A stretch of 64,000 nt of DNA, taken from positions 1,922,001 to 1,986,000 of the forward strand of contig NZ_CP049887.1 in assembly GCF_011304195.1 (NCBI RefSeq). The letters are read 5' to 3'. Below are positions 1,217-18,514 of this stretch, piece by piece. The notes beneath the pieces are model-generated. The model was not told where the DNA came from, made no database searches, and saw nothing but the letters and a program-made list of their open reading frames with translations. This DNA is from Vagococcus hydrophili. GTDB taxonomy: Bacteria; Bacillota; Bacilli; Lactobacillales; Vagococcaceae. Numbering within the stretch: position 1 is the first letter of the stretch; every line of letters starts with the position of its first letter. The position numbers and the translations under genes are program-made.

Positions 1217-2719
1217 TTATCGACACGTAGCTTGAATCTGTTCTGACCAAGGTAAATAAACCTCAAGTGCTTTAGAATTTGAACTATCTTCTAAATTAGG
1301 AAGATGCTTAAACAAATATTCTAAATACTTCACAGGAACTAAGTTATTAGCTTTAGCCGTTTCGATGATAGAATAAGCGATTCCGTTAGCTGTTGCTCCC
1401 CGTTCACTCGCAGAAAAATGCCAATTTTTTCTGCCAATCGTTGTTGGGCGAATACTTCGCTCAGCTAAATTATTTGATAAGGCACATCGACCATCCTCCA
1501 GAAAATTCATCAAACCAGCCTTCATATTAAGCGCATAGTTAACCGCTTTTCCTAATTTCGAACCTGGAAGAGCTCTGAAAGAAGCGATCCATTGCCAGAA
1601 TTCATCAAGAATGGGTTGGCTTTTTGCCAACCGTAAATCATATCTTTCTTGATGGCTTAATCCCTTCATTTCTTTTTCAATATGAAAGAGTTGATCGCAA
1701 TAGGTAACTCCTTGGCTTGCCGGAGTATCTTTAGAAGAGGAATCTTTCGCTTCAAAGAATTTTCTTCGGACGTGAGCCCAACAATTAACTAACGTCGTAT
1801 TCTCAATCGATTTGTAAGCCGAGTAGCCGTCACAATGCAAATAGCCTGAGAATTCGGCTAAAAATTGTTGAGCGACACTACTTTTACGACTCAGGTCATG
1901 ATGATATAAAATAATTGGATACTCTGCTTGTTCGATGGTTCGAAAGAGCCAAAAGTAAGACTTTTCTTTTTCACTTGATAAAACATTATAGTAAGTTTCA
2001 TCCGCATGGATGAGCTCTTCTTTGACTAGTTTCTTTTTGAGCTCCTCCCAAATAGGTGTTAACCATTTTTCACATGAGGTGATGAACCAGTTTGCTTGTG
2101 TTCTACGTGGCACTCGTAATCCATAAGATTCCCACTCCTTTTCTTGTCGATAAAAAGGCAAACTCATTTCTATTTTTTGATGAAATAAGTGAGCTAAGAT
2201 AGAGGCAGACGCCAAACTATGAGTGATTGGTTGTTTAGGAACAACGGCTTTTTTTATGGCATCAGCTCCATCTTTTTTACAATTAGGGCATTCGTAGGCA
2301 TGTTGGTAGTACACATTTTTATACATCTTTGCAGGAACAAAAATAACTTCTTCACGGATTTTAGATTTACCAATATCTTTTAAATCAGAACAACACCAAT
2401 CACAGGTGCAGTCTTCTCCTTCAAGCTGACAATGAACTTCTTTTATAGGTAAATCTTTTGTGAGGGCTGCTTTGTAGCCTTTTTTCTTTTTCCGCTGATA
2501 GTTAATTTCCTCAAAGACGGTTTTTTCTTCAGTTGTCTCTGCTAGATTAAAAGACGAGTCCTCTTCAAATAAATCTAATTGCCCATTAGGGTCAATTGAT
2601 TTTTCAGATGAACGTCCATACAATTTATTTAAAAGAAATTGATTCTGTTCTCTTAGAAGTTTAAGTTCATTAGTTAAAGCTTCGTTTTGTTTTAACAATC
2701 GTTCTTCAAACTCGGTCAA
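1217..2719 (-). CDS. tnpC: IS66 family transposase TnpC
   Basis: This is the large DDE transposase of the element (about 500 aa). It has an N-terminal coiled coil (EERLLKQNEALTNELKLLREQ), a zinc-finger-like region with C-x-C-x2-C (CTCDWCC) and a later C-x2-C, and the catalytic core with LIHADETYYNV, YLHCDGYSAYKSI and the C-terminal NNLAERSIRPTTIGRKNW block. These are hallmarks of IS66 TnpC. An ATG exists at 2734, but GGAGGTG lies inside those first codons, so the TTG at 2719 (MTEFEERLL) is the better start. Length is normal for the family and no frameshift is seen. Confidence 0.93.
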   Translation of the reverse strand: MTEFEERLLKQNEALTNELKLLREQNQFLLNKLYGRSSEKSIDPNGQLDLFEEDSSFNLAETTEEKTVFEEINYQRKKKKGYKAALTKDLPIKEVHCQLEGEDCTCDWCCSDLKDIGKSKIREEVIFVPAKMYKNVYYQHAYECPNCKKDGADAIKKAVVPKQPITHSLASASILAHLFHQKIEMSLPFYRQEKEWESYGLRVPRRTQANWFITSCEKWLTPIWEELKKKLVKEELIHADETYYNVLSSEKEKSYFWLFRTIEQAEYPIILYHHDLSRKSSVAQQFLAEFSGYLHCDGYSAYKSIENTTLVNCWAHVRRKFFEAKDSSSKDTPASQGVTYCDQLFHIEKEMKGLSHQERYDLRLAKSQPILDEFWQWIASFRALPGSKLGKAVNYALNMKAGLMNFLEDGRCALSNNLAERSIRPTTIGRKNWHFSASERGATANGIAYSIIETAKANNLVPVKYLEYLFKHLPNLEDSSNSKALEVYLPWSEQIQATCR

Positions 2720-2810: not shown

Positions 2811-3167
2811 TTAAGAAACAAATCCAGTTTTAGCTTTTAATATCTTTTTTCTTTGTTCGATGGATAAACCTTCTAATAACCAACGGAGTTGTTGTTGCGT
2901 TAATTCTTTGACTTCTTCTTGTTTTCTAGGCCATTGTAATTTTCCATTTTCAAACCGTTTATACAGGAGAATAAAACCATCCCCTTGCCAGTAAAGTGCT
3001 TTGAACCGGTCTGAACGATTGCCACAAAATAGAAATAAGGCATCCGAATAAACATCTAACTCATATTGATTCATGATAATTGAAGCCAGACCATCAATCC
3101 CACGTCTTAAGTCTGTCTTACCACAAACAATATAAATAGTTTGTATCTTCGTATAATCAAGAACCAT
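2811..3167 (-). CDS. tnpB: IS66 family accessory protein TnpB (Orf2)
   Basis: A 118-residue protein with the family signatures TDLRRGIDGLA, DALFLFCGNRSDRFKALYWQGDGFILLYKR and the C-terminal LRWLLEGL. IS66 TnpB is needed for transposition in characterised elements, though its biochemical role is unknown. The gene overlaps the 3' end of the upstream short ORF by 11 bp, which suggests translational coupling. It lies 91 bp before tnpC. Confidence 0.93.
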   Translation of the reverse strand: MVLDYTKIQTIYIVCGKTDLRRGIDGLASIIMNQYELDVYSDALFLFCGNRSDRFKALYWQGDGFILLYKRFENGKLQWPRKQEEVKELTQQQLRWLLEGLSIEQRKKILKAKTGFVS

Positions 3168-3438: not shown

Positions 3439-4444
3439 GCTCATTTTGAAGTATTTTAACAGGAATATCTTTTAATAAACCTTCGTATTGTTTATAGTGA
3501 TTTTTTTCTACTCGTGAAGTCAGATATTGATGGTGTAGCATTTTGTTCATTTTAATTAGTTCTGGGTCAGTTTCTTTATTCGGATCATAGTTATCGGTAT
3601 TCAGAATAATTCCAGAGGCAATATATTCGCCTACAATTATTTGTGTACTAATTTTTTCAGTTTCAAAGGTAGAATTAAAGAAAGCTTGAGTTATTTCATT
3701 TGCGTAACCAGAATTGCCACCACCATTATTTCTCAAATCAAAGATGATTTCCTCACACGTTAGATATTCAGGAATGTATTTATAAAAAATAGCCGTCATT
3801 TCATCTGACATAAAATGAGTTAAATGAACGATTATTTTGTTAGCTACTTTATAAATTCTAATGGCATCATGCTCTTCCAAAATTTGACAGTTATTGCTAA
3901 GTGTATCAGAATAAAAATTTGAAAAATTGGTTTTGTCAGGTAGAAAAGGAATCTCCTGCTTATCTCCGTTTTCAAATTCAATCTCAAAAGAATGAGTATT
4001 AAATAGAAAACTAAAATTATTTTGAGCCATAATTAAGGATTCGTTGATATTATGTTGCCAATAATGAGAGCTGACAATCTTTAAAAATTCACTGACAGAA
4101 AGATGATTGATAGACTTGATAGGTTTAAAAATAAAGTCACTAAAATTTTTGTCCGATGAATTTATCACTAATTGATTTTCTATAACTGTTAAAGTCATTG
4201 GGGCGTAAGTTAAATCATTTTTAATCTTGTCTGGTAAAAAGATGAGTGTATGCCCATCATTTAATAAGGCACTCAGTTTTTGAAGTCTGAGATAAAATTC
4301 TTTTATAGGTAACTCTTTTTGAATATCGTTAAGTAAGTCAACAATGGAATTTTCCCATAAATCAATTAAATCATCAGTCCAGTAAGGAAAAACATTTAAG
4401 GCTTGATGATGGATAGTTAAAATGTCTGAAAGTTGATTATTCAT
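3431..4444 (-). pseudogene. S41-family peptidase, 5' part (interrupted)
   Basis: These 338 codons encode an S41-like peptidase lacking a signal peptide. Visible features are an N-terminal domain with LSALLNDGHTLIFLP, the core strand EEIIFDLRNNGGGNSGYA typical of S41 enzymes, and VKILQNEQTY just before the catalytic serine block. The present reading frame runs four codons into the IS66 element (VSGK, stop at 3416) and so lacks the nucleophile and the C-terminal 88 residues. It should be catalytically dead. Intracellular tricorn-like S41 proteins degrade peptides; the substrate of this one is unknown. Confidence 0.87.
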
Positions 4445-4691
4445 TTGAGTTATCCCCTTTTACTTTAAAATTTTTTAAGTTTATTATTCATTATATCACT
4501 AAGTGGTTCTTTGTTTTGAAATTAGATTACTTCTTTATTCTTTTAGTTAAGTTAAACTATGGTGTGTTTACTTTAGGTATGCCATAATTAAGCACATCAG
4601 TCATAAATTATAAATGTACTAAATTCAGTTATATACTATTAAGCAAAAGCCAATTTTTTATATTTAAAAAAAGTGAGGAAGGAAAATCAAA

Positions 4692-5627
4692 ATGAGTTTA
4701 ACAAAAGATCAATTAAGTGTTGAAGTAGCTAGGCTTTACTACCAACTAGAGTATGGACAACAAAAAATAGCAACAGAATTAAATATTTCAAGACCGACAG
4801 TATCTAGACTACTCAAGCATGCGAAGGATAAGGGATTTGTCACCATTACTATTACAGATCCATTTAGTGAAAGAGAGGTATTAGCTAGAGATATTAAGGA
4901 AAAATTTGGATTAAAAGAAGTAGTTATCGCACAAACGCCAAGTGATAACTATGAATTAATTGTAGAGCAAATCAGCTTAGAAGCAGCTAATTTTATTTCA
5001 GAAGTAATAATAGATGGAGATATCATTGGTATTGGATGGGGAACAACTATTTATGAAGTAGCTAAAAAACTTCAACCTGATGATTCAAAGAATATTCAAG
5101 TGGTTCAGTTAAAGGGAAGTATCACCCATTCAAAAGTAACAACTTTCGCTCATGAAACCTTATCATTATTTGCAGATAATTATCATACAACTGGGACATC
5201 ACTTCCATTACCAGTTATTTTTGATAATAAAGAAGTTAAAACGGTTGTTGAAAAAGACCGTCACATTCAACATATTATGAAACTTCAAGAAGAAGCAAGC
5301 ATAGCCATTTATACAGTGGGAACCACAAGGGAAGAAGCCTTAGTTTTTCAATTAGAGTATTTAACAGATGAGCAAAAGACTTACTTGCAGAAGGTAGCTG
5401 TGGGAGATATTTGTTCTCGTTTTTATAATGAAAAAGGAGACATTGCTTCAAAAGAAATTAATGAGCGGACGATAGGGATTGAGCTTTCTGAATTACCTAA
5501 AAAAAGGGTATCTTTATTGGTTGCAGGTGGGGAACATAAACTAAAAGCTATTGAAGGCGCTTTGAATGGTAATTATGTTAATACCCTAGTTACTGACTAT
5601 TGGACAGCTAAAAAATTGGCAAAATGA
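4692..5627 (+). CDS. deoR: DeoR, SorC-family deoxyribonucleoside regulator
   Basis: This 311-aa repressor has an N-terminal helix-turn-helix (QQKIATELNISRPTVSRLLKHAKDKGFV, residues about 20-47) and a SorC-type sugar-phosphate-binding domain with IGIGWGTTIYEVA and a C-terminal LLVAGGEHKLKAIEGALNG. SorC-type DeoR of Bacillus senses deoxyribose-5-phosphate and represses deoC. Its position 81 bp upstream of deoC supports the same role here. The ATG follows GAGGAAGG. It is unrelated to the DeoR family in the strict sense despite the name. Confidence 0.85.
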   Translation: MSLTKDQLSVEVARLYYQLEYGQQKIATELNISRPTVSRLLKHAKDKGFVTITITDPFSEREVLARDIKEKFGLKEVVIAQTPSDNYELIVEQISLEAANFISEVIIDGDIIGIGWGTTIYEVAKKLQPDDSKNIQVVQLKGSITHSKVTTFAHETLSLFADNYHTTGTSLPLPVIFDNKEVKTVVEKDRHIQHIMKLQEEASIAIYTVGTTREEALVFQLEYLTDEQKTYLQKVAVGDICSRFYNEKGDIASKEINERTIGIELSELPKKRVSLLVAGGEHKLKAIEGALNGNYVNTLVTDYWTAKKLAK

Positions 5628-5646
5628 AATTATGTTCATATTGATG

Positions 5647-5675
5647 TTTACATTTGTTCTGGTTGAGTATATAAT
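5647..5675 (+). promoter_or_regulatory. Promoter of deoC with probable DeoR operators
   Basis: A -35 TTTACA (5647-5652) and a -10 TATAAT (5670-5675) are 17 bp apart. Two palindromes lie on it: ATGTTTACAT (5644-5653), overlapping the -35, and ATTTGTAAACAAAT (5678-5691), at the expected transcription start. They are good candidates for the binding site of the adjacent DeoR. This is inference from placement and symmetry. Confidence 0.7.
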
Positions 5676-5708
5676 GAATTTGTAAACAAATAGAGAGGAA
5701 GTATAGGT

Positions 5709-6386
5709 ATGACAAATTTAGCGAAAATGATCGACCACACAAAATTAAAAGCGGACACTACTCAAGATGAGATTGCTGCTTTAACAAAGGAAGCGAAAGA
5801 ACATGGCTTTTGGTCAGTATGTATTAATCCAGTATGGATTCCATTTGCTAAAGAAGAGTTAGCAGGAAGCGACGTGAAAATTTGTACAGTTATTGGTTTT
5901 CCTTTAGGAGCAAATTCTTCAAAGACTAAAGCTTTTGAAACAAATCTAGCAATTAATGATGGTGCTGATGAAGTAGATATGGTTATTAATGTTGGTGCTT
6001 TAAAACAAGCGCAATATGATGTTGTTTTAGAAGATATTAAAGCTGTTGTGAATGAAGCTAAGGGACGTGCTTTAGTTAAAGTAATAATAGAAACAGCACT
6101 TTTAACAAAAGAAGAAATTATTAAGGTATGTGAATTATCAGTAGAAGCTGGAGCAGACTATGTAAAAACATCAACAGGATTTTCAACAGCAGGAGCAACA
6201 GCTGAAAATGTTAAATTGATGAAGGATACTGTCGGTGAGAAAGCATTAGTTAAAGCATCTGGTGGGGTTAGAACAACTAGTGATGCAGAAGCTATGGTTG
6301 CTGCAGGCGCATCACGTATTGGTGCTAGTGATGGCGTTAAAATTATAGGTGCAACAACAGATAACAGTGATACAAGCGGCTATTAG
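5709..6386 (+). CDS. deoC: Deoxyribose-phosphate aldolase
   Basis: Cleaves 2-deoxyribose-5-phosphate to glyceraldehyde-3-phosphate and acetaldehyde, the last step of deoxynucleoside catabolism. The Schiff-base lysine is K153 in YVKTSTGF, and the second conserved lysine is K182 in [27 protein letters not shown] is also typical. Length (225 aa) is normal. The extreme C-terminus ([10 protein letters not shown]) ends in Tyr, as in DeoC enzymes where this residue assists catalysis. It has its own strong promoter, so it is probably induced when DeoR is released. Confidence 0.95.
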
Positions 6387-6399
6387 TAACTAAGATGGT

Positions 6400-6597
6400 T
6401 AAAAGTCGTTTCGCTCCAGTTATTGTCGAAGCAGACTTTTCAGGGGGTGTGACCTAAGTACGCCCCGCTTCTTTTACAGACTAAACGGTGTCACAGAAGT
6501 AGCTTCTTCAGAAATAAGCCGAAAATTACAAAAATTTGAAAAGCAATTTTCGTGATTTCCTTCTTATTTTTTGAAGCTGAACACTTCTGTCACAACC
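6400..6597. repeat. Structured intergenic palindromic repeat
   Basis: Two nested structures lie in the otherwise gene-poor stretch 6387-6901. At 6400-6441 AAAAGTC pairs with GACTTTT around a TTTCG/CGAA stem. At 6487-6597 GGTGTCACAGAAGT pairs with ACTTCTGTCACAACC, continued inward by GCTTC/GAAGC, AGAAATAAG/CTTATTTTTT and CGAAAATT/AATTTTCG. The stretch resembles elements at 50567-50729 and 53537-53584, and the hairpin at 46607 shares GTGACAGAAGTAG. I read it as a dispersed palindromic repeat that also ends transcription. No protein is encoded. Confidence 0.55.
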
Positions 6598-6618
6598 TCT
6601 GACCAATGTAGGCTGCTG

Positions 6619-6667
6619 AAAAAGTCCCGATTTTCTTAATTGAAAATCGAGACTTTTATTTTTTTAT
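6619..6667 (+). terminator. Terminator downstream of deoC
   Basis: AAAAGTC-CGATTTTC and GAAAATCG-GACTTTT form a strong stem around TTAATT, followed by a run of T. Confidence 0.8.
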
Positions 6668-6790
6668 CACATTACTTTTGTGTACTCCTTAGAATACTGG
6701 CATGAATTTATAGATAATGAATTTGGTTCAGTTGATTTAAAAACTGAAGTGGTCATGATACCTGAAAATATAAAGAAATATATGGAATGA
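6668..6790 (+). pseudogene. 3' remnant of an unidentified gene
   Basis: The open frame has no start codon: it begins directly after a terminator and runs for 40 codons (...EYWHEFIDNEF, then VVMIPENIKKYME, stop at 6790). The protein-like composition and lack of an initiation site suggest the tail of a deleted gene. I do not recognise the family. The following two small membrane-protein genes may have belonged to the same lost cassette. Chance coding cannot be excluded. Confidence 0.3.
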
Positions 6791-6901
6791 AAGTTGTTGT
6801 TCATTTTAACTTATAATAGTTTCTGAATGATATGATACTTATCAAATTGTTTTACATGTGTAAATAAAAAATGCTATGATAAAAATAAAGGGTGATTATC
6901 T

Positions 6902-12107: not shown

Positions 12108-12563
12108 TTTTTTACCTCGTTATTATTTTGAATCAATTTTAACATAATTTATGAAGGGATTTTAGATGGTTGGTTTTGAAAGGGGAAAGTATAACTAGTT
12201 AAATGTATTATCCATATAAACTTCTTTCAAAATAATTTAAGATTATAAATGTTTTTTGATTTTAATAAGTTATCTAAAAAATATTTAAGGTACTTAAAAT
12301 ATAAAAGATGTAAATAAATTTTTGAACAATTACGTATAGCTCTATGTGAATAATTCAATAAAATAGCATTTATATATAGAATATCCTAAATTATTAATTA
12401 ACGTTTTTTTGTAAAAAGATCACAAAATGGTTTTTTTCGGTATTGAATATTACAAAAAACATTGAATAGTTGTTTAATGAGAGTAAAATAAACTTATCTA
12501 CTAGGACTACTATATGATGTGATTATTTTTTGTGTTTATACTAAAAGGAAAAGGTGATATAAG
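12108..12563. other. AT-rich upstream region of the RiPP locus
   Basis: This 456-bp stretch has no convincing ORF. It holds the promoters of the HXXEE gene (-) and the precursor gene (+). A candidate promoter for the precursor is TTGAAT (12462-12467) with TAAAAT 16 bp later. The octamer ATTGAATA occurs twice in direct orientation (12442-12449 and 12461-12468), 19 bp apart and overlapping that -35, as expected for a regulator binding one helix face. Both are weak predictions. Confidence 0.3.
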
Positions 12564-12710
12564 ATGAAGAAGAATAATGAAAAAAAAGTTGCTATTAAAA
12601 AAATTGATGTAAAATCTATAAATAAAGATTTTGAAATTTTAGAGGATGCCATTACTCCGTCTTGGGGTATTAATTGCCGTAAAGGTAGTTTTGGAATCTG
12701 GTGTAACTAG
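12564..12710 (+). CDS. RiPP precursor peptide (48 aa) with duplicated core motif
   Basis: This small gene has the ribosome site AAAGGTGAT 8 nt before the ATG. The first 29 residues form a charged, lysine/glutamate-rich leader (MKKNNEKKVAIKK...FEILEDA). The C-terminus holds two copies of S-aromatic-G-I-x-C: SWGINC (33-38) and SFGIWC (42-47), joined by RKG and ending in N48. It directly precedes a radical SAM/SPASM enzyme, an M50 protease and an ABC transporter, so I infer that Cys38 and Cys47 or the aromatic residues are cross-linked or otherwise modified and the leader is removed. No similarity to a named class is certain. CcpM-linked Cys-rich peptides and YydF epipeptides are the nearest contexts I know. 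Confidence 0.75.
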   Translation: MKKNNEKKVAIKKIDVKSINKDFEILEDAITPSWGINCRKGSFGIWCN

Positions 12711-12766
12711 TTAATTAATGTTAGTAGTCATGTCTAGTAGACTGATTTAAGATAAAGGTAAAATAG

Positions 12767-12810
12767 AAATCACATCAAGTACATTATTTAATGTGGTTGA
12801 TGTGATTTTT
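12767..12810 (+). terminator. Attenuator between precursor and radical SAM gene
   Basis: AAATCACATCAA (12767-12778) and TTGATGTGATTT (12797-12808) are perfectly complementary and followed by T. Partial termination here would make the precursor mRNA more abundant than that for the enzymes, as is common in peptide loci. Confidence 0.8.
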
Positions 12811-12857
12811 ACTACTATCCATTTTTATATTATTATATGAGGAGGTTAAGATAAGAC

Positions 12858-14186
12858 ATGAACATAATAGAAAGAAGAAATAAAAATATATTATTTTTTT
12901 CAAATTCCCTAAACTCATTTGAAATAAATGATAAAACGAAAAGAATAATAAAAGAATTATCTAAAAACAAATCAGAAAATAAAATTTTGCAAGATAATGA
13001 GGTTACAAAAGGAGAAATTCTGGAAATTAATAATTTAATCACAGAACAAAACTCAATTGAATTACCTGTAGAAGATAGAAAAGAAGGTCATTCGAATTAT
13101 TTAAAAAGACTATCAATAAATATATCTAATTCTTGTAATATGAAATGTAAATATTGTTACGCTCAATTTGGTTATTATGGATCAGAAAAATCTTTAATGA
13201 ACATTGATATTATAAAGGAAACGTTAGACAATTTCTATTCATCATTTGATGAAATTGCTATTATTCAAGTCTTTGGCGGAGAACCTTTTTTACATTATGA
13301 AGGATTCAAATATATTTGTGAATACATAGAGTCTAAGTATGAAAAAGGAGAAATAAAATATAAAACACTAATAACTACAGTTACTAATGGTACAGTTCTA
13401 TCTGCTAAAATTATTGAATTGATAAAGAAGCACAATATTATTATCACCATTAGTTTAGATGGTCCAAAAGAAATTCATGATTGTAACAGGTCCTTTTTAA
13501 ATGATACTGGTACATTTGAAAGAATAATAAAAAATATAAAAAAATTAAAGGTTGAAACTGGTCAACCACAACAAATTGAGGCTACTTATAATCAAGAACA
13601 CGTTAAACATAATATAAGTATTATTAAACTTATCGAATACATCAAGACACAATTTGAAGATGTTTCTATTCATATAGCTCCTGTTTCTGGGAACAAGAAT
13701 GAATGTTTTACTTTAGAAAATAGAGACAGTTTTGTTGATTCAGTAGATGATATTTTTAATTATAATAAAAAAAAGAAAAATAAAGCTAATTATTTAATTT
13801 TAGATTCCATGCTACAATTATTTCAAAATCCAGAAAAAAAAACAAATTTTTGTGATGCAGGAATTAGCTTATTTTCGGTATCATATACAGGATATGTATA
13901 TCCATGTTACATGTTTATTGACGAACCTGGATTTGCCTTATGCAATGTTCAAGATTCTAATTTTTCAAGAAGTTTCTTATTAAATAAAGCAAAAAAATAT
14001 CAAGAACATAATAGACAAGAAGGAAAATCTTCTTGTAAATCATGCCCTATAGTTAATGTTTGTGATGGTTGTCTTGGAATGAATTATTTTAACACGGGAC
14101 ACATATATACACCAGTAACTGAAGATTGCAGTATGAAGAGAAAAATGGTCAAAAGTATTATTTTCAATATAAACGAGTATGCTTAA
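12858..14186 (+). CDS. Radical SAM/SPASM peptide maturase
   Basis: 442 aa. The radical SAM cluster motif is C93-x3-C97-x2-C100 (CNMKCKYCYAQFG), followed by the glycine-rich SAM site VFGGEPFLHYE and SLDGPKEIHDCNR. The C-terminal SPASM region (from about residue 335) has FCDAG, YVYPCYMF, CKSCPIVNVCDGC and a last Cys near residue 427, enough ligands for two auxiliary iron-sulfur clusters. The N-terminal 80 residues lack cysteines and may bind the leader. Such enzymes install thioether, C-C or epimer modifications in peptides; this one should act on the precursor just upstream. The ATG follows GGAGG. Confidence 0.9.
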   Translation: MNIIERRNKNILFFSNSLNSFEINDKTKRIIKELSKNKSENKILQDNEVTKGEILEINNLITEQNSIELPVEDRKEGHSNYLKRLSINISNSCNMKCKYCYAQFGYYGSEKSLMNIDIIKETLDNFYSSFDEIAIIQVFGGEPFLHYEGFKYICEYIESKYEKGEIKYKTLITTVTNGTVLSAKIIELIKKHNIIITISLDGPKEIHDCNRSFLNDTGTFERIIKNIKKLKVETGQPQQIEATYNQEHVKHNISIIKLIEYIKTQFEDVSIHIAPVSGNKNECFTLENRDSFVDSVDDIFNYNKKKKNKANYLILDSMLQLFQNPEKKTNFCDAGISLFSVSYTGYVYPCYMFIDEPGFALCNVQDSNFSRSFLLNKAKKYQEHNRQEGKSSCKSCPIVNVCDGCLGMNYFNTGHIYTPVTEDCSMKRKMVKSIIFNINEYA

Positions 14187-14201
14187 TGGTGAGGGATATT
14201 C

Positions 14202-15356
14202 ATGGATAAAATGCAAATTACACCTACAATTGTTTCAGATGTGAAATGTTGGTTATTATTTAAAAAAAAAGAAAATGAATACTGTCTGGGAAGCTTATCT
14301 ACAAACAATTTTATAAAGTTATATGAATATCAAATTGAAGATGTAAACAAAATGATTTATTTGATGGATGGTAACAATACATTAGAGTTTATCGATAAAC
14401 AAATTAAATCTTTTCAAGTTAAAAATTTATTTGATGTAATGTGTAGTATTGGATTAATTCAAGGTTATGAGTCCCAAAAAAAGAAAAATGAATTTGAATT
14501 ATATTCTTTCACTTTTTTTAAAATACCTTTATATAAAATGAATAAATTTTTATGTGCATTATCTAGTAAAATTATTAATAGAAAAATATTAATAATCATA
14601 TCAATGATAATGTTAATTATTTGTATTGTTTTTTTCAAAAATATACCTTATTTAATGACTTCTCCAACCACATATAAATTATTGGATAGTGATATTCTGA
14701 ATATAATACTTTATTACTTGTTGACAATAGTTTCTGTACTACTACATGAATTATCTCATGCATTAGTTGCTTCAAGATATAATATTTATCCTACTTATTT
14801 TTCTGGAGCATTGTACTTATACATATCCCCAATAGTATATTTAACTATACCAGGTATATATACACGACAACCTAAAGAGAGAATATATGTTTGGGGAGCT
14901 GGAATGTATACTAACTTATTAGTTTCAATGATTTCTTTATTATTATTTTCATTGAATAATAACAACTTAGCAGCGCTTATCTTTGTTATTAATATTACGT
15001 TAGTAATGGTTAATTTATCTCCTATGATGCCGTTAGATGGATATTTTATTGTATGTACTTTGCTTAGAGAAACTAACATGAGAAGGCAATTTTTACATCC
15101 TTTTGATAAGAATGTTTGGAGTAATAGTAGTATACTAATAAAATTATATACATTCTCTTCTTTTTTGCTGATAATATCAGTTTTATTAACACAGTGTATT
15201 TGGTTGTTTAAATTTATCAGTTCTGCTTATGAACACAACACAGACGTTATATCATTTTTTATCGACATAAAATTAGTTATATTAGTTATATTAGTGATGA
15301 TAATTTCAAGAGTAATAAAATTAGGAGCTAAAAAATATGGAAGTTTTGACGTGTAA
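14202..15356 (+). CDS. M50-family membrane protease with PqqD-like N-terminus
   Basis: 384 aa. The first ~90 residues look like a PqqD/RRE winged helix (VKCWLLFKKKENEYCLGSLSTNNFIKLYEYQIED, then a helix-rich part). The rest is polytopic, with the zinc site H182-E183-L-S-H186 (VLLHELSHALVA) and the partner motif MPLDG (D279) typical of site-2 proteases. It most resembles YydH in the Bacillus yydFGHIJ locus. I infer that it cuts the modified peptide at or in the membrane during export. The gap to the maturase is 15 bp, and its 3' end overlaps the ATPase gene by 20 bp. Confidence 0.85.
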   Translation: MDKMQITPTIVSDVKCWLLFKKKENEYCLGSLSTNNFIKLYEYQIEDVNKMIYLMDGNNTLEFIDKQIKSFQVKNLFDVMCSIGLIQGYESQKKKNEFELYSFTFFKIPLYKMNKFLCALSSKIINRKILIIISMIMLIICIVFFKNIPYLMTSPTTYKLLDSDILNIILYYLLTIVSVLLHELSHALVASRYNIYPTYFSGALYLYISPIVYLTIPGIYTRQPKERIYVWGAGMYTNLLVSMISLLLFSLNNNNLAALIFVINITLVMVNLSPMMPLDGYFIVCTLLRETNMRRQFLHPFDKNVWSNSSILIKLYTFSSFLLIISVLLTQCIWLFKFISSAYEHNTDVISFFIDIKLVILVILVMIISRVIKLGAKKYGSFDV

Positions 15357-16242
15357 CAACATAACAAAAAAAGTTGGAAAAAAAATAATAATTGATGATA
15401 TTAGCTTGTCTTTGAAAACTGGTGAGGTTATTGGTTTGATTGGACCAAACGGAGCTGGAAAAACAAGTCTAATGAAATTATTAGTTGGTTTATATTATAT
15501 TGATGAAGGTTGTATATCAAGTCTAGATAATGACCAAAAATTAGATTTTCCTAACTATATAAAAAATATAGGAGCTATAATAGAGAATCCGATGTTTTAT
15601 CCAAAATTAACTGGAAAACAGTGTTTAAACTATTATTCAATTATTAGAGATATTAATAACAATAGAATTAAAGAAGTTAGTGATTTAACAGGAATTAATT
15701 CAATATTAAATCAACAAGTAAAAACATATTCATTAGGAAATAAACAAAGACTAGGAATTGCTCAAGCATTATTAGTTGACCCGCAACTTCTAATTTTAGA
15801 TGAACCATTCAATGGTTTAGATCCTGATGGTATTTTAGAGTTAAGAAATATTATTTTAAAACAAAAGGAAAAAAATAAAACTATATTAATATCGAGTCAC
15901 ACTTTACCAGAACTGGAACAAATATGTGATCGTTTTATTTTTCTCAAAACAGGAAAAATTATTGAAGAATTGGAAAATAAAGATTTTGAAAATACTAATT
16001 TTTCCATAATTGATATTGATCCTAAAGATTTTACAAATGTTGAAAAATTATTAGAGAGCCAATGTACTTATCCTTTTGAAATTGATGATACTAGAATAAT
16101 ATTTAAAGGTGTAGAACAAGAGTATATTCTAGATTTGATTTTTTGGTTAAAAAATAAAAATGTAAATGTTATTAATTTTGAAAATAAAAAAGAAACATTA
16201 CAAGATTATTACGAAAAAATAATCTTGGGAGGTAAAAAATGA
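15337..16242 (+). CDS. ABC transporter ATP-binding protein (peptide export/immunity)
   Basis: 301 aa with Walker A GPNGAGKTS, signature YSLGNKQRLGIAQ (S-L-G-N replaces the usual SGGQ), Walker B LLILDEPFNGLDPDG and the H-loop ISSHTLPELEQ. About 80 C-terminal residues form an accessory domain seen in bacitracin/lantibiotic-type export ATPases. It overlaps the genes on both sides (20 bp and 4 bp), showing one operon. It should power the adjacent permease to export the peptide or protect the producer; YydI is the positional counterpart. Confidence 0.9.
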   Translation: MEVLTCNNITKKVGKKIIIDDISLSLKTGEVIGLIGPNGAGKTSLMKLLVGLYYIDEGCISSLDNDQKLDFPNYIKNIGAIIENPMFYPKLTGKQCLNYYSIIRDINNNRIKEVSDLTGINSILNQQVKTYSLGNKQRLGIAQALLVDPQLLILDEPFNGLDPDGILELRNIILKQKEKNKTILISSHTLPELEQICDRFIFLKTGKIIEELENKDFENTNFSIIDIDPKDFTNVEKLLESQCTYPFEIDDTRIIFKGVEQEYILDLIFWLKNKNVNVINFENKKETLQDYYEKIILGGKK

Positions 16243-17123
16243 AGTCTATATTTAAAGGTGAAACCTTAAAATTTTTTTATTCCAAAGTTTGGTTATTTTG
16301 GGAACTGATTATCCTTATTTTTTCCTTATTTTTAATGCTATCTATGGATAAAGGATATAACTGGCAGAAGGATTTATTAAATGAAAATCAGCAAATTGAA
16401 CAAAATTTAAACATGACTCACGAAGAATTAAAAATTAATGATAAGAATGATCAAGATATTTTAAAATGGAAAATTAATGAAAAATATTTAAGTAAAGATA
16501 ATAATAGTATTGATAAAAATGGGTTTATTAGTTATATATCCAATCTGTTTTCTGTAAAAGGTTTAGGTTTACTGATTATTATTTTTCCTATTATTTTCAG
16601 TGTCGGAATCGCTAAAGAATTTGAAAATAAAACAATTGATTTTGTATTAATTAGCCCACATAAAAGAAAAGAATTTTATTGGGGGAAACTATTAAGCAAT
16701 TTTACTGTGATTATTCTATTTCTAATTAGTGTATTACTAATAAACATGGTTATAGGTTATTTTTACTTTGACAGATACCAATTTAGTGACACGGTATTTT
16801 TTATTAACAAAAATAAAATTGTGGAAACATCAGCTACATCCTACATGATTAATAGTTTATTGAGATCATTACCTTACTATTTTGTCTATTCATTTATCGG
16901 TTTTTGCTTAGCAATTACTACACGGTCTACTGTACTCAGCTTAACCATAACATTATTTTTTGCATTATTAGGCAATCAAATTTCAGGTCTAATTCCAATT
17001 AAAAATGGAATGATATTTATTTTACCTGCTATAACTGATTTAACTAATTACATCGATTCACCAACTTATATTCAATATTTAGACATCAATCTTTGGATAA
17101 TACTTCTTATTATGATAGCGTAA
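16239..17123 (+). pseudogene. ABC-2 type permease, 3' end replaced by IS256-family insertion
   Basis: It encodes 294 residues with an N-terminal helix, an extracytoplasmic loop (about 40-105) and five further hydrophobic segments, as in YydJ-like or bacitracin-type permeases. The last codons (I-A, then TAA) come from the inserted element. Joining 17113 to 18451 restores LLIMSIYVVLIILGSKRIF and a stop at 18514, giving 312 residues. The truncated protein lacks only the last part of the final helix and tail, so partial function is possible. That makes the system's activity uncertain rather than surely lost. Confidence 0.85.
17106..17113. repeat. Target-site duplication, left copy (IS256-family element)
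   Basis: CTTATTAT directly before the element; an identical copy lies at 18443-18450. Taking out the element and one copy restores the permease frame. Confidence 0.85.
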
Positions 17124-18442
17124 AATATTTTGTGTAAATAGAAATTTTAGGTAGATAAAAAGAAAGTCCATTCTGTAAAATTAAAGTTACCACAACCGAA
17201 ATTTTATAGGAGGACTTTCTCATGACTAATTTTACTACAGAAATTATGGAAACACTAATCAATAAAGGTGATTTGGATGACTTATTCCGTCGTCATCTAG
17301 AATTAGCTATCAATACACTGCTACAAGCTGAATTAACGGCTTTTCTTGATTATGAGAAATATGATCGCACTGGTTTTAATTCAGGTAATTCCCGAAATGG
17401 GAATTATTCTCGTTCATTTAAAACAGAGTATGGAGAATTAAATTTGGCAATTCCTAGAGATAGAAATGGAGAGTTTTCTCAACAAACGTTGCCTGCTTAT
17501 AAAAGAAGTAACGACTCTTTAGAAACCACCATTATCCAATTATTTCAAAAAGGAATCACTATGTCTGAAATCTCTGAGTTGATTGAAAAAATGTATGGTC
17601 ATTACTATACACCACAAACCATTTCCAATATCACTCAAATAGTATCTGAAGATGTTGTTGCTTTTAAAGAAAGGTCCTTAGAATCCCAATACTCAATCAT
17701 TTTTATGGATGCTACTCACATTCCTTTAAAAAGACAAACTGTCTCAAAAGAAGCTGTATATATTGTCATAGGTATCCGACTGGATGGGACCAAAGAGGTT
17801 CTTGGGTTTAGTATTGCTCCAACTGAGTCTTCGTATGTTTGGAAAGAAATACTTCAAGACCTAAAAGACCGTGGTTTAGAAGAGGTTTTATTAGTCGTAA
17901 CTGATGGTTTAAGCGGCATTGACGATAGTATCCATAGTATTTATCCAAATGCTCAATTTCAACAATGTTGTGTCCATATCTCTAGAAATATTGCTCATAA
18001 GGTTCGTGTTAGTGATCGACAAGAAGTCTGTAATGATTTTAAATTGGTTTATCAAGCAGCTTCAAAAGAAGAAGCTATGAATCAAATAAGTTTTATGATA
18101 GATAAATGGAAAAAGCAGTATCCACGAGTAGTTAAATTACTCATGAATCCTGCTATATTAACCTTTTATAATTTTCCTCCATCAATCAGAAGAACCATTT
18201 ATTCAACTAACTTGATTGAAGGTTTTAACAAACAATTAAAGAAATATACAAAAAGAAAAGAACAATTCCCTAATGAAGAATCTCTAGAGAGATTCTTAGT
18301 TTCTCAATTCAACAACTATAATCAGAAATTTTTGTGTCGGATTCATAAAGGTTTTAAAGAAATACAAGATACATTAGAATCAATGTTTTAACTTAACCGA
18401 CAGAATGGTTTTTTCCATTTACACATAATTCTTGACGCAACC
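17114..18442 (+). mobile_element. IS256-family insertion sequence (1329 bp)
   Basis: The ends are imperfect inverted repeats. The left end reads GATAGCGTAAAATATTTTGT and the right end, on the other strand, GGTTGCGTCAAGAATTATGT; both continue into GTGTAAAT and a CCATTCTGT block. The element is flanked by the 8-bp repeat CTTATTAT. It carries one intact mutator-type transposase gene in the same direction as the RiPP operon. Size and structure fit IS256. Confidence 0.88.
17222..18391 (+). CDS. IS256-family (mutator type) transposase
   Basis: 389 aa with hallmarks of the family: RSGNSRNGNYSRS-like N-terminal block (NSGNSRNGNYSRSFKTEYGE), the DDE core beginning FMDATHIPLKRQ, VTDGLSGIDDSI (second Asp), QQCCVHISRNI and the C-terminal RRTIYSTNLIEGFNKQLKKYTKRKEQFPNEESLERFL containing the catalytic Glu. 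Length is typical and no stop or frameshift is seen, so the copy may be active. GGAGGACTTTCTCATG gives a good start. Confidence 0.95.
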   Translation: MTNFTTEIMETLINKGDLDDLFRRHLELAINTLLQAELTAFLDYEKYDRTGFNSGNSRNGNYSRSFKTEYGELNLAIPRDRNGEFSQQTLPAYKRSNDSLETTIIQLFQKGITMSEISELIEKMYGHYYTPQTISNITQIVSEDVVAFKERSLESQYSIIFMDATHIPLKRQTVSKEAVYIVIGIRLDGTKEVLGFSIAPTESSYVWKEILQDLKDRGLEEVLLVVTDGLSGIDDSIHSIYPNAQFQQCCVHISRNIAHKVRVSDRQEVCNDFKLVYQAASKEEAMNQISFMIDKWKKQYPRVVKLLMNPAILTFYNFPPSIRRTIYSTNLIEGFNKQLKKYTKRKEQFPNEESLERFLVSQFNNYNQKFLCRIHKGFKEIQDTLESMF

Positions 18443-18450
18443 CTTATTAT
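18443..18450. repeat. Target-site duplication, right copy (IS256-family element)
   Basis: CTTATTAT directly after the right inverted repeat of the element. Confidence 0.85.
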
Positions 18451-18514
18451 GTCAATTTATGTAGTATTAATTATATTAGGTTCAAAAAGAATATTTGAAA
18501 AAAACGATATTTAG
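18451..18514 (+). pseudogene. Severed 3' end of the RiPP ABC permease gene
   Basis: In frame with the permease after removal of the element: 21 codons ending ...VVLIILGSKRIFEKNDI and TAG at 18512-18514. It completes the last membrane helix and a charged tail. It has no start of its own. Confidence 0.8.

Follow-up and report, generated by a model that had tools for sequence, protein, structure and literature searches.

A 48-residue precursor peptide encoded in Vagococcus hydrophili carries two tandem six-residue units, and the radical SAM/SPASM maturase encoded next to it is predicted, with a little more than even confidence, to close one four-residue G-x-x-C thioether ring per unit by joining Cys to the Gly upstream of it. 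The features concerned are given below by their positions in the window, i.e. the whole stretch of 64,000 nucleotides that was analysed.

12564..12710 (+): gene for the 48-aa precursor peptide, its leader reaching about residue 32 (ILEDAITP) and its core being SWGINCRKGSFGIWCN
12660..12677 (+): unit 1, SWGINC, residues 33-38, with GxxC = G35-C38
12687..12704 (+): unit 2, SFGIWC, residues 42-47, with GxxC = G44-C47, Cys47 being penultimate
12764..12811 (+): strong hairpin between the precursor and maturase genes, from folding of the 147-nt spacer, bounds read off the dot-bracket output
12858..14186 (+): radical SAM/SPASM maturase, 442 aa, with PF04055 and PF13186 both scoring above cut-off
14202..15356 (+): 384-aa membrane metalloprotease of the M50 type, with HELSH at 182 and NLSPMMPLDG at 271
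15337..16242 (+): 301-aa ATP-binding protein of an ABC transporter
16239..17123 (+): ABC-2 permease gene, 3' end removed by an IS256-family element, stop at 17123 inside the element
17115..18442 (+): IS256-family insertion, transposase at 17222-18391, located in the permease gene and shortening its frame

The ORF at 12564-12710 (+) translates as MKKNNEKKVAIKKIDVKSINKDFEILEDAITPSWGINCRKGSFGIWCN, is preceded by AAGGAAAAGGTGAT, a ribosome-site-like stretch, and ends in SWGINC-RKG-SFGIWC-N. The first-pass annotation had described the two hexapeptides as lying nine residues apart, separated by RKG, within the last 16 residues, and this is borne out by the translated ORF, in which they start at residues 33 (base 12660) and 42 (base 12687) and in which its numbering of W34, C38, F43 and C47 is correct. 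A chance origin of the duplicated motif is ruled out by composition-preserving shuffles of the precursor, none of 1,000,000 having two copies of [WF]GIxC (at least one copy in 1,539), and among the window's 1,573 stop-to-stop frames with 20 codons or more, two [WF]G[IV]xC motifs are present in just one, the precursor ORF itself. A recent DNA duplication is likewise ruled out, since the two 18-base units have only 8 of 18 bases in common and differ in all six codon pairs; five of the six residue pairs are nevertheless identical or aromatic, so that the likeness of the units is maintained by selection on the protein. The ORF is a real peptide gene of the RiPP type, and its small size together with the adjoining gene for an enzyme with CxxxCxxC and SPASM cysteines places it among the radical SAM/SPASM-matured RiPPs. 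When 19,230 frames of 20-150 codons were searched in 108 partly overlapping sequences (755,196 bases) chosen for containing maturase relatives, two or more copies of [WFY]G[IV]x[CP] were found in five distinct ORFs, located in the window, L021, L084 (present there as L078) and, for two of them, L107, each of these loci having a relative of the window maturase.

The spacer hairpin (z -5.24) was matched in stability by none of 200 shuffles of the 147-nt spacer, and it may set a high precursor-to-enzyme ratio; a terminator scan detected no site. Judging from their gene families, the M50-type protease (14202-15356) likely serves in leader removal and release and the ABC ATP-binding protein (15337-16242) in self-immunity or export. 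Upstream, on the opposite strand, lies a gene for an HXXEE-family protein (PF13787; 11715-12107, -). The GC content of 12150-17114 is 24.5% versus 33.9% for the rest of the window (31.9-36.0% in 97 overlapping windows of equal length elsewhere), and none of 13 genomes of the same genus (G001-G013) has a match at 1e-60; taken together, these data suggest that the operon is an acquired island. The IS256-family element is flanked by the same nine bases on either side (17106-17114 and 18443-18451). Its first 107-116 bases match plasmids at 93-100% among the best 20 of 242 records, 240 of which are from Enterococcus. With its permease gene disrupted, this strain may have weakened immunity or production. 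That the whole locus is dead or decaying, leaving a former precursor with no product, would agree with this interruption of the last operon gene and is to be regarded as very unlikely, the precursor, maturase, protease and ATPase frames all being open and the cysteines and HExxH motif to be expected all being there.

The closest operons found are those of a Robinsoniella MAG (L021; JAMPFB010000023.1), whose precursor gene at 5613-5789 ends in ...DADILEDPVAPGWGIFCTGKACTVKSWGVVCG, and of genome G680 (L084), which belongs to the same family as that of L021 and whose precursor gene at 4134-4265 ends in ...GIETLEDTIAPTFGIWCAGCTSGHWGVVCG. In both, the precursor is followed by a radical SAM/SPASM enzyme, an M50-type protease and then what look like an ABC ATPase and two membrane proteins. 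The radical SAM proteins are 36-37% (L021) and 33% (L084) identical to the window maturase, and the L021 protease is 28% identical to its window counterpart; the L084 protease scores 82 bits with the daptide HExxH model, for which the cut-off is 300. Conservation of the repeats in homologous precursors, proposed as a check by the first-pass annotation, was found in both operons, each precursor having two [WF]G[IV]xC units; the absence of the repeat, named there as a refuting outcome, was thus not observed. The six units of these three WG-type peptides all keep the aromatic residue, Gly, Ile/Val and Cys, with variation at the position just ahead of Cys; all three peptides share the LEDxxxP leader end and finish with Cys plus one residue, and those of L021 and L084 each have one extra Cys between the units. 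This conserved duplication, together with the two to eight units found in related precursors (see below), is consistent with the earlier suggestion that one maturase would make the same change in each repeat.

Sixteen loci with the maturase or a relative of it were read for precursors (the window, L021, L022, L075, L076, L077, L084-L088, L098-L100, L106 and L107), and two [WF]G[IV]xC units occur in three of them, namely the window, L021 and L084. L075 encodes SWGIFCGGVC and, in a sister ORF, DWEVICGIGCI; two small WxxxC peptides are found there at 3749-5637, each followed by a gene for a membrane protein of ca. 235 residues, the two membrane proteins sharing their C-terminal end (NSWGCIFLFIFFWNAF). 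CGxxC-rich precursors occur in L098, L099, L088 and, beside a remoter maturase, L100; that of L099 at 3535-3768, a Gly/Cys-rich peptide of 77 residues, has eight Cys with Gly at -3 of each. Other Cys-rich peptides were found in L077 and L022, and no precursor was recognised beside the maturase relative of L076. In five loci (L085, L086, L087, L106 and L107) the cores next to a related maturase are devoid of Cys, and the Gly with its following aliphatic residue recurs in such relatives as tandem xG[IVL] units. The clearest case is L107, where a single peptide contains LTGLIKP-TAGIISRP-LTNGIISKP-LTNGIISKS; three Cys-free precursors with tandem xG[ILF][IV]xxP-like units lie there beside a related maturase (6296-6532, 6592-6804 and 2475-2681, -), and neither of the two that were scanned gave an NCBIfam match at 0.001. 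Another L107 peptide reads LYGIQP-LYGIKP-LYGIAI, its assignment to an enzyme not being certain; tandem LYGIQP/LYGIKP peptides with a leader ending in ELTGG are encoded at 2936-3154 and 1783-2055 (-), close to another, distinct radical SAM gene.

The best leader match of the window precursor is the Cys-free L107 peptide at 6296-6532 (MKKNNE...VKS), with a score of 55 against a shuffle mean of 19.9 (sd 4.0; 0/300), the alignment setting W34-G35-I36 on T-G-L of AIAPLTGLIKP. Among 15 chosen precursors, three (L084, L107a and L107c) were significant at 0/300 and 12 were not, including that of L021, the leader of which was equalled by 75 of 300 shuffles; the link between L021 and the window relies on a local match over leader and first unit, with an E-value of 3e-8 for that single pair.

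The bond position is suggested by a spacing rule. In 14 Cys-containing precursors from eight loci, 51 of 53 Cys have a Gly exactly three residues upstream (7/8 in the window, L021 and L084; 3/4 in L075; 31/31 in L098, L099 and L088; 10/10 in L100), the exceptions being one extra Cys of L084 and the WEVIC of L075, and no other position from -8 to +4 has Gly in more than 25 of 49. When the core letters were shuffled around fixed Cys, the mean was 18.9 (sd 3.1) and the maximum 30 in 10,000, a result to be read as a composition control and not as a probability since the peptides are related, some of them being paralogues from a single locus, and a number of them are rich in Gly. The same spacing was absent from two GggA precursors (0/4), a SCIFF precursor in L002 (0/6) and L022 (0/3), and was found for 2 of 10 Cys in L077. 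The aromatic residue is confined to the branch of the window precursor, whereas Gly persists and Cys occurs in several branches. These observations favour Cys as one crosslink partner, as had been proposed from the window alone. They do not support the aromatic residue as the obvious donor, since the residue preceding the conserved Gly in relatives is often Cys, or Tyr, Met, Ser or Ile.

The maturase has the cysteines C93, C97 and C100 as well as C332, C350, C393, C396, C402, C405, C424. Its predicted structure (pLDDT 73.6, pTM 0.73) begins with a beta-beta-beta-helix-beta-helix stretch (residues 2-65) that may, at low confidence, resemble an RRE, the 10-residue pLDDT means being 49-69 there and no PqqD-like Pfam match being found. 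Its best NCBIfam model is that of PapB (NF047865; 182.9 bits, cut-off 340), with lower scores for a nif11-type model with no stated chemistry (159 bits), the SCIFF maturase (TIGR03974; 156.5 bits, cut-off 425), GggB (NF050038; 111.8 bits, cut-off 650) and the cyclophane models YhhB (87.8 of 445 bits) and GrrM/OscB (80.4 of 310 bits); among the best 25 models no curated maturase cut-off is reached. The M50-type protein scores 41.3 bits with the YydH/LiaK model (cut-off 225). Membership in the PapB, SCIFF, GggB, cyclophane and epipeptide families is rejected on these cut-offs, and, among the models listed, none of 15 precursors or 11 maturases scanned attains an NCBIfam cut-off. The closest solved structure by sequence is CteB (5wgg; E 2.3e-55), which also takes ranks 1-3 in Foldseek (TM to query 0.62-0.65), EpeE first appearing at rank 29 (0.45).

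A tree of 19 rows places the window enzyme with those of L021, L084 and the Cys-free L085 (88/87), and an adjoining group contains L075, L086, L106, L087, L107, L098, L099 and L088 (84/92). No clade confined to WG-type maturases is supported and substrate type sorts uncleanly, the WG label being as clustered in 223 of 500 shuffles and all labels in 82 of 200. With the query's own genome included, strong matches were obtained in 4 of 348 and 3 of 146 genomes at 1e-48, 4 of 395 at 1e-60, 6 of 246 (four at coordinates already found) and 1 of 200 at 1e-85, and 1 of 6 in each of two small sets. A phylum search at 1e-25 gave matches in 299 of 398 genomes, three of which beyond the window's own (G370, G348 and G520) were examined. 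Plasmid searches returned no match for the precursor, 76 records for the maturase (all below 60% identity, the best 40 of 76 at 21-29%) and 116 for the L107 maturase (all below 60%), among which no cyclopropylglycine enzyme was identified; a scan of viral contigs gave three weak loci, which were left out of the comparison. The papers listed by literature searches included no description of the two-unit [WF]GIxC motif and none combining Vagococcus, RiPP and radical SAM.

A Gly-Cys ring is favoured by the persistence of GxxC, the penultimate position of the second Cys and a maturase whose nearest enzymes include thioether makers; the rings of NxxC peptides and streptosactin (see below) are precedents, and the direction would be the reverse of that in streptosactin. 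As Cys47 is followed by one residue, its partner has to lie upstream, and a link from Cys to a downstream residue (CxxG, CX3D) is ruled out for the second ring. The adjacent radical SAM/SPASM enzyme would bind the leader and act once per unit, producing two in-line, unnested four-residue rings (G35-C38 and G44-C47) from Cys sulfur to Gly, probably at the alpha-carbon since this is the sole carbon of Gly bearing a hydrogen. The M50 protease would then cut near the LEDxxxP leader end, releasing a peptide of about 16-18 residues, and the ABC pair would give immunity or export; from the gene families, the product is probably a narrow-spectrum bacteriocin. The anatomy of the precursor, its conserved duplication, the conserved operon and the GxxC rule are read directly from sequence, and the modification, bond, cleavage and role are predicted.

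The strongest evidence against the Gly-Cys ring comes from the Cys-free relatives, since the five loci that pair a related maturase with such cores imply that the chemistry of the family need not be thioether formation; the Cys-free nature of the best leader match, the curated cut-offs and the unsupported grouping of WG-type maturases point the same way. A broader scheme, which we put forward tentatively and with limited expectation, would have one maturase family attack the Gly of a Gly-centred unit in all lineages while the partner was exchanged in evolution, being Cys at +3 where present and otherwise a Thr/Ser oxygen just upstream (TNG, TSG, TAG) or a neighbouring aliphatic side chain; here the aromatic residue could add a second bond per unit. 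As in the main reading, the acceptor of the thioether ring would precede Cys, opposite to streptosactin, and with the second bond each unit would become a compact, doubly linked motif, present here twice. The Gly followed by an aliphatic residue in Cys-free relatives would also suit a change of Ile/Val with no inter-residue crosslink, either epimerisation, as in epipeptides, or formation of a side-chain cyclopropane, as by TvgB on TVGG repeats. The operon order equals that of yydFGHIJ in the available part of PMC7026026, with the M50 protein matching the YydH/LiaK model (see above), and TvgB is described as acting repeatedly on a repeated motif in that of PMC9062424. Such a change is nonetheless improbable, given that only 26 of 53 Cys combine Gly at -3 with an aliphatic residue at -2, versus 51 of 53 for Gly alone, and that the maturase fold is nearest to CteB and far from EpeE.

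The aromatic residues are central to two further readings. Triceptide-like cyclophanes, in which the rings of W34 and F43 would be joined to the beta-carbons of Ile36 and Ile45 (i to i+2) so as to give two three-residue cyclophanes with Cys left free or in a disulfide, are unlikely, even though aromatic-Gly-Ile/Val is kept in all six WG-type units and in the Cys-free LYGIQP/LYGIKP of L107. An Ile-Trp crosslink is reportedly named in the title of a 2022 paper by Clark and Seyedsayamdost, which counts in favour of such a link. The GxxC of 51 of 53 Cys would then be left unexplained, most of these Cys belonging to peptides that lack the aromatic residue, the LYGIxP precursors are not assigned to an enzyme, and the cyclophane maturase models (YhhB 88, GrrM/OscB 80 bits) score below those of PapB and SCIFF. 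Three-residue cyclophanes do join an aromatic residue i to the beta-carbon of i+2, yet the third residues named in the available text of the same source are Arg, Asn, Asp and Ser (PMC11002830). The link put forward in the first-pass annotation, a five-residue ring closed by a thioether from each Cys to the aromatic residue at -4, would account for the constancy of both residues in the six WG-type units; the variety of residues before the Gly of GxxC in relatives means that the acceptor is not generally aromatic, no precedent appeared among the papers listed by literature searches, and this link is very improbable.

Overall, the data point to a new precursor/maturase subfamily of radical SAM RiPPs lying outside the named classes, with its chemistry predicted. 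The GxxC rule provides a sharp prediction for the bond position, and comparing natural variants that have or lack Cys and aromatic residues would reveal which residue is the target of a SPASM enzyme and how thioether chemistry is gained or lost in one family. Among the closest known systems, streptosactin (GGG, from streptococci) has a SPASM maturase, a short precursor and two unnested four-residue thioether rings, such rings being predicted here. Its rings join Cys to alpha-carbons, one of them on Gly, with acceptors downstream of Cys (C25-S28 and C31-G34) in the available part of PMC8172795, an arrangement impossible for Cys47; moreover, GxxC is absent from two GggA precursors and the cut-off of the GggB model is not reached. 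Compared by the description available in PMC13361665, NxxC RaS-RiPPs likewise have Cys bonded to a residue that precedes it, their name implying the same spacing, the acceptor being the beta-carbon of Asn there and Gly here. PapB-type ranthipeptides correspond to the best-scoring NCBIfam model, below its cut-off, and PapA has several in-line crosslinks per peptide, but its Cys-X3-Asp/Glu motifs, as given in the accessible text of PMC9413430, are absent from the window precursor. CteB of the SCIFF system is closest to the maturase by both sequence and fold, whereas the six-Cys SCIFF precursor has no counterpart here, the window precursor having two Cys and the L002 SCIFF precursor no GxxC. With the epipeptide operon yydFGHIJ of Bacillus subtilis the order of precursor, radical SAM enzyme, M50 protease, ABC ATPase and permease is shared (PMC7026026, in part), and an M50 protease releases the epipeptide according to the available portion of PMC10885120; the window maturase is however nearer to CteB than to EpeE, and the YydH/LiaK cut-off is not reached. 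Triceptides share aromatic-X-X units repeated in the core, the differences here being Ile/Val as third residue, a constant Cys and low scores with the cyclophane models. Finally, the TVGG poly-cyclopropylglycine peptide of TvgB resembles the window precursor in having a repeated motif that is repeatedly modified by one SPASM enzyme (PMC9062424, in part), and differs from it in the motif itself, the window precursor containing Cys and aromatic residues.
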